From Sphingomonas caeni (GTDB taxonomy: Bacteria > Pseudomonadota > Alphaproteobacteria > Sphingomonadales > Sphingomonadaceae), in assembly GCF_026013415.1 (NCBI RefSeq), contig NZ_JAPDOK010000001.1, positions 124,001 to 188,000 on the forward strand: a stretch of 64,000 bases of DNA. The letters run 5' to 3'. Made by a program: the position numbers and the translations under genes. The notes under the pieces are model-generated. The model saw only the letters and a list, made by a program, of their open reading frames with translations, had not been told where the DNA came from and made no database searches. Shown here in pieces: positions 8,778 through 14,116 of this stretch. Position 1 is the first letter of the stretch; the number at the start of each line of letters is the position of its first letter.

Positions 8778-8836
8778 GGTTTCCTCCGTGCCCCGGGGTT
8801 AGCCAAGCGCCGATGAGCGGTCTAGAGACACGCGCC

Positions 8837-10489
8837 ATGACTCAGAAACGCACCGGCGGCCGCATCCTCGTCGACAATCTCGTCGCCCAGGGCTGCGACC
8901 GTATCTTCCACGTCCCCGGCGAGAGCTTCCTCGCGGTGCTCGACGCGCTCCACGATACGCCGATGATCGATCTCGTCACCTGCCGCCAGGAAGGCGGCGT
9001 GGGTTTCATGGCCTGCGCCGACGGCGCGATGACGCAGCGGCCGGGCGTCGCCTTCGTGACGCGCGGGCCCGGCGCGACCAACGCGAGCATCGGCGTCCAT
9101 GTCGCGATGCAGGATTCGCAGCCGATGATCCTGTTCATCGGCGATGTCGACCGCGGCATGCGCGACCGCGAGGGGTTCCAGGAAGTCGATTTCCCGGCCT
9201 TTTTCGGGCCGATCGCAAAGTGGGCAACGCGGATCGAAGATGCGCGGCGGATCCCCGAATATGTCGCGCGGGCGTGGAATGTGGCGATGAGCGGGCGGCC
9301 GGGACCGGTGGTGATCGCGCTCCCCGAGGATATGCTGTGCGATGTTGTCGAGGCGGTCGACCGGCCCGAGCTCGCCCCGGCGCTGCAGAGCCCCAATGCC
9401 TATGATCTCGACCAGATGTTCGAGATGCTCGCCGCCGCCAAGCGCCCGATCGCGATCGTCGGAGGCGCGGGCTGGGATGCGGAGACGGGGCAGGATTTCG
9501 CCCGCTTCGCAGAGCGGATCGGCCTGCCCGTCACGGGCGCCTTCCGGCGGCAGGATGCGATCCTCAACAGCTCGCCGGTCTGGGCCGGCAATCTCGGCTA
9601 TGGGCCGAACCCCAAGCTCGTTCAGCGGATCAAGGATGCCGATCTGCTCCTCGTGGTCGGGGCGAGGCTCGGCGAGGCGACGACCGATGGCTATACGCTC
9701 GTCACGCTCGACCATCCCGGCCAGACGCTGATCCATGTCCACCCGGACCCCAACGAACTCAACCGCGCCTATCGGGTCGATCTGCCGATCTGCGCGCGGC
9801 CGTTCGAGTTCGCGGTATCGGCCGCGGCCGAAGAGGAAGTCGACCTCCCGGCGTTCGACGGCGCCGCCGCCCATGCCGAATGGCTCGACTGGTCCACCCC
9901 CAAGCCTCGCGACGGCGTCAAGCTCGACCTCGGCCTCTGCGTCGCCGCGATGCGCGAACGCCTTCCCGCCGACAGCATCATCTGCAACGGCGCGGGCAAT
10001 TTCTCGGGCTGGTGGCACCGCTACTGGCATTATGGCCCCCAGCCGAGCCAGCTCGCCCCCACCGCCGGCGCGATGGGCTATGGCGTCCCCGCCGCGGTCG
10101 CCGCGGCGCTGCGCGCGCCCGAGCGGACCGTGGTCGCGCTCGCGGGCGATGGCGATTTCATGATGAACGGGCAGGAACTCGCCACCGCGATCCAGCATGG
10201 TGCCGACATCCTCGTCCTCATCATCGACAATTCGGCCTATGGCACGATCCGCATGCACCAGGAGCGCGAATATCCCGCGCGCCTCAGCGGCACGACGCTC
10301 CATAACCCCGATTTCGCGGCACTCGGCCGCGCCTATGGCGCCTGGGCGAAAACGGTAGAGACCACCGCCGAGTTCGCCCCCGCGCTCGAACGGGCGATGG
10401 CTGAGAAGGGCGTCCGGCTGCTCCACCTCAAGACCGATGTCGAGTTCATCACCGCCGGCACCACCATCTCGGCGATCCGCAACAAATAG
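8837..10489 (+). CDS. Thiamine diphosphate-dependent enzyme, acetolactate synthase-like
   Basis: A 550-residue three-domain ThDP enzyme. The N-terminal pyrimidine-binding domain carries the catalytic glutamate E52 (TCRQEGG). The middle Rossmann-like domain spans about 190-330, and the C-terminal domain has the GDG...N cofactor motif at G437-N465 (AGDGDFM to IDNSAYG). The family includes acetolactate synthase, glyoxylate carboligase and oxalyl-CoA decarboxylase. Genuine branched-chain synthesis is unlikely because no ilvN or ilvC neighbour is present. Start 8837 is preferred over an ATG at 8813 because homologues begin near M-T-x-x-R-T-G-G; both lack a strong ribosome binding site. Confidence 0.88.
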   Translation: MTQKRTGGRILVDNLVAQGCDRIFHVPGESFLAVLDALHDTPMIDLVTCRQEGGVGFMACADGAMTQRPGVAFVTRGPGATNASIGVHVAMQDSQPMILFIGDVDRGMRDREGFQEVDFPAFFGPIAKWATRIEDARRIPEYVARAWNVAMSGRPGPVVIALPEDMLCDVVEAVDRPELAPALQSPNAYDLDQMFEMLAAAKRPIAIVGGAGWDAETGQDFARFAERIGLPVTGAFRRQDAILNSSPVWAGNLGYGPNPKLVQRIKDADLLLVVGARLGEATTDGYTLVTLDHPGQTLIHVHPDPNELNRAYRVDLPICARPFEFAVSAAAEEEVDLPAFDGAAAHAEWLDWSTPKPRDGVKLDLGLCVAAMRERLPADSIICNGAGNFSGWWHRYWHYGPQPSQLAPTAGAMGYGVPAAVAAALRAPERTVVALAGDGDFMMNGQELATAIQHGADILVLIIDNSAYGTIRMHQEREYPARLSGTTLHNPDFAALGRAYGAWAKTVETTAEFAPALERAMAEKGVRLLHLKTDVEFITAGTTISAIRNK

Positions 10490-12275: not shown

Positions 12276-13034
12276 CTAAGGGCGCGGTACCACCCCATCG
12301 AGGAACGCCAGCACCGCCGACCACGCATCCTCCGCCCCGCCGGGGTTCTTCTCGCGGATCAGGATCGAGGAACCGTGCACCCCGCCCTTCACCGGCGCGA
12401 ACTGGCGCTTGTTGGCCGCGGGGACCACATCGATCAGCGCTTTCGCCGCCGCGATCTCGCCCTGGTCCTGCGCCGAGGTGACGAACACCGGCGCCGCCAC
12501 CCGGGAAGCCGCCGGTCCGACCGCAGGCTTGCCGTCGAAATATTCGCCCGGGGAAAAGGCGAGCAGCGCCTTCACCTCGGGATGCTCGGCCGCGATCAGG
12601 AAGACGAGCGAGGCCGAATAGCTGCTGCCCCACAGGATCACCGGCAGCTTTTTCGTGCTCGCCCAGGCGAGCGCCGCCTCCAGATCCTGGCGCGCCTCGA
12701 GATACGATCCCTCATGCCCCAGCTTCTTCACCGTCCAGTTGCCGCCGAACAGGCCGCCGCCCGCGCGCGCGTCGATCGTCAGCGTCGCGAAGCCCTCGGC
12801 GTTCAGCCGCGGCGCGATGGTGAGATATTCGCCCTGCCCCGACCCCGCCTGGTGGAAGAGCAGGATGATCGCGCGCGGGTTGGCGGGCTGCGACCAGGTG
12901 CCGAACACCTCGACGCCGTCCGCCGCCTTGAACTGCACCTGTTCGGTCCGCGTGCTCACATCGGTCTTGGGAGCAACCGGCCGGTTGCACGCCGAAAGCG
13001 CCAGCACCGCAAGCAGCAGCGCCGCCCAGCGCAT
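12276..13034 (-). CDS. Lipoprotein alpha/beta hydrolase
   Basis: A 252-residue protein with a lipobox L-S-A-C ending at Cys16. The alpha/beta hydrolase core shows the oxyanion-hole segment LLFHQAGSG (58-66), the nucleophile elbow WGSSYSA (Ser138), an acid in SAQDQG near 194 and a catalytic His candidate in KGGVHGSS near 229. This suggests a membrane-tethered dienelactone-hydrolase-like esterase facing the periplasm; the substrate is unknown. The start shares one base with the thiSG stop (TGATG), so translation is coupled to the thiazole-synthase gene. Confidence 0.85.
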   Translation of the reverse strand: MRWAALLLAVLALSACNRPVAPKTDVSTRTEQVQFKAADGVEVFGTWSQPANPRAIILLFHQAGSGQGEYLTIAPRLNAEGFATLTIDARAGGGLFGGNWTVKKLGHEGSYLEARQDLEAALAWASTKKLPVILWGSSYSASLVFLIAAEHPEVKALLAFSPGEYFDGKPAVGPAASRVAAPVFVTSAQDQGEIAAAKALIDVVPAANKRQFAPVKGGVHGSSILIREKNPGGAEDAWSAVLAFLDGVVPRP

Positions 13035-14116
13035 CAGATCAGCCCCGCCAGCGGGCTGGAGGGATCGGCGTAGCGCCTTTTGCCCATCCGCCCGGCGCGA
13101 TAGGAGAGCCGCCCGGCCTCGACCGCCGCCTTCATCGCCGCCGCCATCATCACCGGGTCCTTTGCCTCGGCGATCGCGGTGTTCATCAGCACGCCGTCGC
13201 AGCCAAGCTCCATCGCCACCGCCGCGTCGCTCGCGCTGCCCACCCCCGCATCGACCAGCACCGGCACCTTGGCGCCCTCGACGATCAGCCGGATCGTCAC
13301 CTGGTTCTGGATGCCCAGCCCCGATCCGATCGGTGCGCCCAGCGGCATGATCGCCACCGCGCCGACATCCTCGAGCCGCTTGGCGGCAATCGGATCATCG
13401 ACGCAATAGACCATCGGCAGGAACCCCTCCTTGGCCAATATCTCGGTTGCACGCAGCGTCTCGACCATGTCGGGATAGAGCGTCCGCGCCTCGCCCAGCA
13501 CTTCGAGCTTCACCAGCTCCCAGCCCCCCGCCTCGCGCGCCAGCCTGAGCGTTCGGATCGCCGATTCGGCGTCGAAACAGCCCGCGGTGTTGGGCAGATA
13601 GGTGATCTTCTTGGGGTCGATATAGTCGGTGAGCATCGGCGCCTTGGGGTCGCTGACATTCACCCGCCGCACCGCAACGGTGACGATCTCCGCGCCGCTT
13701 GCGGCCACCGCCGCTGCGTTCTGCTCGAAATCCTTATACTTGCCGGTGCCGACGATCAGCCGCGACCGGAAGGTCTTGCCCGCGACGGTCCATATGTCCT
13801 CGTCCACCGGCCGGGCATGATCCCCGCCGCCCCCCGCGACCGGATGGTCGCCACCACCAACAAAATGGACGATCTCCAGATCGTCGCCATCCTCGACGAT
13901 CACCTCGCCCAGCGTCGAGCGCGGCACCACTTCGAGGTTGCGCTCGACCGCGAGCTTTTCGGGACTCAGCCCCAGCTCCACGGCAAGCTGCAAGAGATTG
14001 AGTCCGGCGGCCACGCGCTTGTGTTCGCCGTTGACGGTGATGGAAACGGTGCCGTCGCTGTGCACGAAAATGTCCGATTTGATCGCTGACGAGCGGTCAT
14101 ATAGGAGGGCCCGCAC
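13034..14116 (-). CDS. thiG: ThiS-ThiG fusion (sulfur carrier protein plus thiazole synthase)
   Basis: A 360-residue protein with two recognisable parts. Residues about 23-89 form a ThiS ubiquitin-like domain ([11 protein letters not shown] to EIVHFVGGG), ending in the Gly-Gly normally thiocarboxylated at the free C-terminus. After a Gly/Asp/His-rich linker (90-107), residues 108-360 are ThiG, a TIM barrel with the Schiff-base lysine K203 in LVKLEVLG and a phosphate site GVGSASDAA. Together they build the thiazole of thiamine. A GTG at 14063-14065 is an alternative start, giving a protein that begins closer to the ThiS domain; neither has a good ribosome binding site. No TPP riboswitch fits in the 43-bp gap upstream. 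Confidence 0.93.

Follow-up and report, generated by a model that had tools for sequence, protein, structure and literature searches.

A candidate JAMM peptidase for release of the sulfur carrier ThiS from ThiS-ThiG fusions in Sphingomonas caeni and other Pseudomonadota

In Sphingomonas caeni, the sulfur carrier ThiS and the thiazole synthase ThiG of thiamine synthesis are encoded as one protein, referred to here as ThiSG. Its frame lies in a stretch of 64,000 nucleotides (the window; positions 124,001 to 188,000 of contig NZ_JAPDOK010000001.1, RefSeq assembly GCF_026013415.1). Our comparative analyses make it very likely that a stand-alone JAMM/MPN+ zinc peptidase encoded elsewhere in the genome cuts ThiSG after the GGG at the junction of its two halves, which would free ThiS for the single MoeB/ThiF-type E1 enzyme of this organism. 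Direct results are the fusion, the failure to find a free ThiS, the retention of the glycines, a JAMM gene whose motif is intact, and the joint occurrence of the fusion and JAMM genes. The fusion itself is widespread and was already listed in 2006; the new elements are the link between the fusion and JAMM genes and the tails of separate ThiS proteins that fit this link.

The thiS-thiG gene is a single uninterrupted frame of 360 codons (Table 1). Its N-terminal part was matched by the thiS family TIGR01683 over the full length of the profile (1-64/64) with 60.3 bits against a cut-off of 37.45, and by PF02597 with 34.8 bits, while the ThiG family PF05690 matched the C-terminal part with 364.4 bits (profile 2-247/247). 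The solved chains nearest to the ThiG domain are 1wv2, 1xm3 and 1tyg, and K203 (in LVKLEVLG), which we take from its position to be the ThiG active-site lysine that forms the imine, was invariant among 36 aligned diverse fusions. The fusion is neither a sequencing error nor a chance reading, as an open frame of this kind was read in 110 genomes from the order (this one among them), 28 more from the class and 21 more from the phylum.

The constant part of the junction is its glycines. FVGGG occupies residues 85-89, and the frame runs from GGG directly into ThiG, so that no free C-terminal Gly-Gly is encoded and cleavage would be needed to produce one. GGG was found at the junction in 159/159 fusions read (110 from the order, 28 from the class and 21 from the phylum; one carries four glycines), and G87, G88 and G89 were invariant in the alignment of 36. 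The residue after GGG varies; within the order it is D in 54 fusions, Q in 28, S in 9, N in 6, E in 6, A in 3 and another residue in 4. Equally variable is the sequence of the linker, which measures 18 to 36 residues from GGG to the GTGKY motif among the fusions read. An AlphaFold2 model of the fusion gave good confidence in both domains and a predicted local distance difference test (pLDDT) score below 50 at residues 93-104. In a separate set of 80 named loci, 79 were fused and one (L109) had a stop after GGG. These results bear on an earlier note, made from the window sequence alone, which had placed the Gly-Gly inside the chain and reasoned that ThiF, in the standard pathway, acts on a free end, which calls for either cleavage or another sulfur route; the frame and the profile matches agree with the former, and we judge the latter to be right. 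Loss of ThiS residues in relatives, which the note had raised, was not found. Its suggestion that the His/Gly/Asp-rich linker may be a cleavage site needs correction, as the linker is not conserved as a site and that composition is limited to this fusion and some close relatives and is not general among fusions.

The earlier note had also proposed a search for a free ThiS elsewhere in the genome. None was found in the assembly (4.10 Mb in 24 contigs, estimated 100% complete), where the only ThiS-family hits were the fusion and one further protein. The latter was considered as a free ThiS and rejected, as it is a MoaD (TIGR01682) adjoining MoaE. MoaD (83 codons) and MoaE are separate frames in this genome; therefore the known JAMM substrate, a MoaD-MoaE fusion, is absent. 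A single E1 enzyme reached the Pfam ThiF cut-off. It passed the threshold of PRK05690, the MoeB subfamily, with 288.7 bits against 266, and scored below that of the ThiF equivalog (227.9 bits against 275.25). Judging from these scores, one E1 probably serves both carriers, ThiS and MoaD.

The candidate peptidase gene, on contig C20, stands alone and is unlinked to thiSG. It has 131 codons, scores 85 bits against PF14464 and is the only one in the genome to reach the cut-off of that family, with two more hits below it. Its zinc motif is intact (HSHP and S-x-x-D); H-x-H-P...S-x-x-D was present in 50/50 JAMM copies read, and E26, H81, H83, S91 and D94 were invariant among 28 aligned sequences. 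The predicted structure is a single-domain MPN fold (mean pLDDT 96.7), and its best match was JAMM1 of Pyrococcus furiosus (5ld9, 5lda; TM-score 0.83-0.86), which has also been solved with the ubiquitin-like SAMP2. The nearest curated NCBIfam family is the haloarchaeal desampylase NF041370 (94.9 bits, below its cut-off of 130); the archaeal SAMP modifiers are a substrate system different from ThiSG. In the public annotation, a relative of this JAMM is named 'M67 family metallopeptidase'.

The distribution of the two genes was compared in three overlapping draws of Pseudomonadota genomes, at the level of the order (n=197), the class (n=143, at least 95% complete) and the phylum (n=169), with distinct genomes counted once. 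A locus was scored as fused when one match ran from query residue 26 or earlier to about 358-360 without a stop; the match of one genome, G002, covers residues 24-216 at a contig end. A genome was scored as JAMM-positive when its best PF14464 match had at least about 44 bits in the order (lowest G006, 44.9) or at least 50 in the class and phylum. Both states were read off the search tables and entered by hand. The order table excludes G014, which lacks ThiG, and the phylum count excludes G412, which has a ThiG fragment only; G002, G014 and G078 are absent from the trees.

Over the three draws combined, a strong JAMM gene was present in 159/160 distinct fused genomes. In the order, 110 fused genomes were JAMM-positive and one was not, against 25 and 60, respectively, of those without the fusion (Fisher P 6.5e-29). 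When JAMM states were shuffled within genera, none of 20,000 shuffles reached the observed 110 (mean 104.2, maximum 109), and shuffling within families gave a maximum of 94. Six genera of the order contain both fused and split forms: in five of them (g3, g5, g10, g15 and g41) all fused genomes were JAMM-positive and some or all split genomes JAMM-negative, and in the sixth (g1) JAMM was found in every genome. Parsimony on ThiG trees of 194 genomes gave 27 changes of fusion state and 17 to 20 of JAMM. A model of correlated evolution was favored over independence (likelihood ratio 85.2 for the protein and 81.5 for the nucleotide tree of 194 ThiG sequences, with 4 degrees of freedom), and in the fitted model the state 'fused without JAMM' was short-lived and left very fast.

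The association extended beyond the order. In the class draw, JAMM was found in 31/31 fused genomes against 5/112 others (23/23 against 3/88 when counted by family); of these five, four were split (the match was interrupted by a stop in three of the four), and in one the only match was too weak for ThiG. In the phylum draw, 27/27 fused genomes (21 of them outside the class) were JAMM-positive against 47/141 others, with one unclassed genome left out. MoaE, which served as a control in the class draw, was tied to the fusion much more weakly, being present in 31/31 fused genomes and in 69/112 others. A profile built from the JAMM family itself detected all four lower-scoring fused genomes that had been added as positives and no intact copy in 62 JAMM-negative genomes of the order. 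One split, JAMM-negative genome carries a JAMM-like fragment of 50 codons with an in-frame TGA (G092:C1:1800365-1800514; 18.3 bits), which may be a decaying remnant or a chance match.

The ends of separate ThiS proteins follow a related pattern. Among the split genomes of the order, 84 had a locus, and the end was read in 73 of these; 55/73 end exactly at GGG, and 18/73 carry one to five further residues. As most split relatives end there, a cut after residue 89 of the fusion would yield the very product that they encode. JAMM was present in 8/8 genomes whose ThiS has at least two residues (three to five were seen) beyond GGG and in 4/4 with one extra Lys, and GGG is thus buried in 12 of the 25 split JAMM-positive genomes of the order; this result was found post hoc, and seven of the tails are from one genus (g56). 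Outside the order two tails were seen, SLF in G406 and ALS in G321, both in JAMM-positive genomes. The association of such tails with JAMM supports the cleavage reading without proving it. The rule runs in one direction: a GGG buried by at least two residues goes with JAMM, and the converse fails.

These observations suggest a scheme in which the thiSG product would be an inactive precursor. The JAMM peptidase would cleave it directly after GGG, within the flexible junction, to give a ThiS with a normal free Gly-Gly end and a ThiG with a short N-terminal tail. The freed ThiS would be adenylated by the single MoeB/ThiF-type E1 and then thiocarboxylated, and the thiocarboxylate would pass its sulfur on to ThiG, following the textbook pathway. 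From the sequence comparisons we infer three elements of this scheme: that this particular JAMM is the enzyme, that residue 89 is the last one before the cut, and that the protein depends on cutting to be active.

Several points weigh against this interpretation. The case for cleavage is built on sequence evidence throughout. The score limit for JAMM-positive genomes was chosen after the tables had been seen, and at the lower cut-off of Pfam the JAMM-positive genomes number 164/197, 50/143 and 107/169 in the order, class and phylum, which weakens the contrast; the PF14464 hits below our limit appear to be RadC-type or other JAB proteins, and in the order, where this was examined, the search with the family's own profile does not recover them. 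One fused genome, G002, has no JAMM, either above our limit with the Pfam profile or by the family's own profile; it is a metagenome-assembled genome of 430 contigs, 90% complete. The trees are ThiG gene trees standing in for a tree of the species. The rates fitted on them leave undecided which came first, loss of JAMM or gene fission. In 33 selected pairs on the same contig, thiSG and JAMM were not neighbors (nearest 17 kb, median 787 kb), and there is therefore no operon evidence. JAMM also occurs without the fusion, in 25/85, 5/112 and 47/141 genomes of the order, class and phylum, and it accompanies 13/55 of the order's ThiS proteins without any residue beyond GGG. The phylum draw includes a family, f127, in which 31/31 genomes were JAMM-positive and none showed the fusion (two were without a ThiG match); the 11 ThiS ends read there all stop exactly at GGG. 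Thus, the JAMM must have other substrates too. Finally, six genomes of genus g5 have one residue after GGG (Cys in five, Ala in one; loci L190, L149, L228, L412, L413 and L414) and JAMM in 0/6, a pattern for which the cutting model offers no explanation.

The fusion might instead be active uncut, with sulfur reaching ThiG by another route (e.g., as persulfide or sulfide) and the ThiS domain serving as a scaffold or persisting as a relic. In its favor, no cut protein has been seen, and every fusion read is a single open frame; however, it leaves the accompanying JAMM gene unexplained, and the terminal glycines of ThiS, for which a relic or scaffold would have no use, are kept in all fusions read while the residues that follow them vary. 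We consider it quite improbable. A programmed frameshift at the glycine codons could also release free ThiS, with the full-length fusion as a by-product, and a stop does lie within 10 codons of the junction in the -1 frame of 76/159 fusions and in the +1 frame of 31/159. These stops are not conserved, however, and in the window the first ones lie 37 (-1) and 30 (+1) codons away, so that the shifted product would have a long foreign tail after GGG; only the faintest chance can be given to this explanation. An internal restart of ThiG in the linker was considered and set aside: an in-frame ATG occurs there in 16/159 fusions and any of ATG, GTG or TTG in 104/159, but while such restarts could supply additional free ThiG, they offer no way to release ThiS.

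It is also conceivable that ThiSG is cut after GGG by another protease and that JAMM tracks the fusion on other grounds, for instance because it acts on some other ubiquitin-like protein. The many genomes that combine a separate thiS with JAMM indicate other roles of the latter, and the protease acting on the MoaD-MoaE fusion MoaX is not identified in the relevant parts of the report on its cleavage (PMC4326299). Yet the only ThiS-family proteins found in this genome are the fusion and a MoaD that already has a free end, and MoaE follows the fusion far less closely than JAMM does. A MoaD-MoaE fusion as the reason for the presence of JAMM was rejected: in 20/31 fused genomes of the class the MoaE frame has at most 194 codons, too few to hold both MoaD (83 codons here) and a MoaE domain (114 profile positions), which excludes such a fusion in those genomes, and here the genes are separate. 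In the other fused genomes of the class the MoaE frame is longer in nine (238-459) and borderline in two (209 and 210); only that of this genome was checked, and it proved separate. Taken together, we regard this alternative as very unlikely and prefer release of ThiS by the JAMM peptidase.

JAMM peptidases trim other sulfur carriers in the pairs QbsE/QbsD, HcyS/HcyD and CysO/Mec+. There, the enzyme acts beside the Gly-Gly of a ThiS-like carrier, which resembles the short ThiS tails found with JAMM in our data; however, what is taken off is an amino acid or a short extension of the C-terminus, and not a whole partner enzyme. Closer parallels come from molybdopterin synthesis. MoaX of Mycobacterium tuberculosis, a MoaD-MoaE fusion, is cut after Gly82, and the cut is required for activity, according to the sections of PMC4326299 that deal with cleavage. 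As in ThiSG, a ubiquitin-like sulfur carrier precedes its partner enzyme with Gly-Gly at the junction, and the cut after the second Gly was demonstrated for MoaX; the differences are that the cofactor is molybdopterin and not thiamine, and that for ThiSG cleavage is proposed from sequence and a candidate protease is named. The sections of PMC8832034 on DRJAMM (DR0402) describe its cutting of the MoaD-MoaE fusion (DR2607) of Deinococcus radiodurans, again a case in which a JAMM/MPN+ peptidase separates a sulfur carrier from the partner enzyme to which it is linearly fused. The carrier and the partner differ, however, and that work was biochemistry in one organism, whereas ours is comparative genomics over many. 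With a carrier ahead of its partner, Gly-Gly at the junction and a candidate protease in the genome, ThiSG appears to be of the same kind as MoaX and the D. radiodurans fusion.

For ThiS-ThiG fusions themselves, the passages of Iyer et al. (2006; PMC1779556) on such architectures list the same arrangement in many proteobacteria and in Rubrobacter, in line with the mention in the earlier note of similar fusions named in some alphaproteobacterial annotations. One sentence of that paper suggests that JAB/JAMM peptidases might release ThiS or MoaD from fusions, and the paper also remarks that JAB genes are absent from thiamine operons. An unlinked JAMM gene such as the one described here would escape a neighborhood method. 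In the portions of the open-access literature covered by our search, no test of ThiS-ThiG cleavage or of a JAMM in thiamine synthesis was found, and the link between them was made only in PMC1779556.

Table 1. Features of the thiS-thiG fusion in the window and of the partner gene on another contig
Feature	Residues	Position	Strand	Remark
thiS-thiG fusion frame, stop included		13034..14116	(-)	likely true start GTG at 14065
ThiS domain, beta-grasp sulfur carrier	26-89	13850..14041	(-)	TIGR01683 and PF02597
GGG	87-89	13850..13858	(-)	usual end of separate ThiS; presumed site of cleavage (after residue 89)
Linker	90-108	13793..13849	(-)	predicted disordered in part
ThiG domain, thiazole synthase	111-355	13052..13786	(-)	PF05690
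JAMM/MPN+ peptidase partner gene (PF14464)		G000:C20:168485-168805

The frame and both full-length domains stand as first read, and the start requires correction. In many relatives, the initial Met lines up with residue 18 of the fusion (VHSDGTVSI here, MHTDGTVSI in relatives), and for this reason the GTG at 14065, and not that at 14116 from which the frame was originally taken to begin, is probably the true start. The divergent neighbors of the fusion were read from the open frames as aroQ, accB and accC; a record of Sphingomonas parapaucimobilis has these genes annotated in the same order next to its fusion. On the same strand, a frame at 12276-13034 (-) starts at the last base of the fusion frame, making co-transcription possible; by reading alone, with no family search run, it resembles a lipoprotein-like alpha/beta-hydrolase. 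A further frame nearby, at 8813-10489 (+), was read, likewise with no family search run, as a thiamine-diphosphate enzyme, and a 'thiamine pyrophosphate-binding protein' is also found near the fusion in record L392. A search of the whole window for RNA control elements gave no Rfam match at or above the gathering score.

Some public records of related fusions deserve mention. In L391 and L392 the whole fusion is named only 'sulfur carrier protein ThiS', and its ThiG half is consequently hidden from pathway counts based on names. In Sphingobium sp. EP60837 (L391:4154-6993), thiC adjoins the thiS-thiG fusion on a plasmid typed as conjugative. In addition, records labeled Microvirga sp. SRT01 (L053) and Arthrobacter sp. 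TPD3018 (L079) contain Sphingomonas-like fusions, with best segments 86% and 85% identical, respectively, and are probably mislabeled.

In a broader sense, it is likely that the small JAMM is the ThiS-maturation peptidase of vitamin B1 synthesis in many Alphaproteobacteria and other Pseudomonadota, where it would bare the Gly-Gly that lies under a fused ThiG or under a few extra residues, such that proteolysis switches on the thiazole branch; once ThiS acquires a stop at GGG, the JAMM would become dispensable and would be lost, as may have happened repeatedly. If this is true, a conserved orphan peptidase gene would gain a job, and a missing step of the thiamine pathway would be filled in many environmental bacteria. 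Thiamine synthesis would then be the second cofactor route, after that of molybdopterin, in which a JAMM must cut loose a ubiquitin-like sulfur carrier, and pathway reconstructions that score ThiS-ThiG as complete in the absence of a peptidase would be in error. Within one order, splitting and loss have recurred, which provides a natural experiment on the keeping and dropping of a protease-substrate pair, and the one-sentence suggestion of 2006 is now directly testable.
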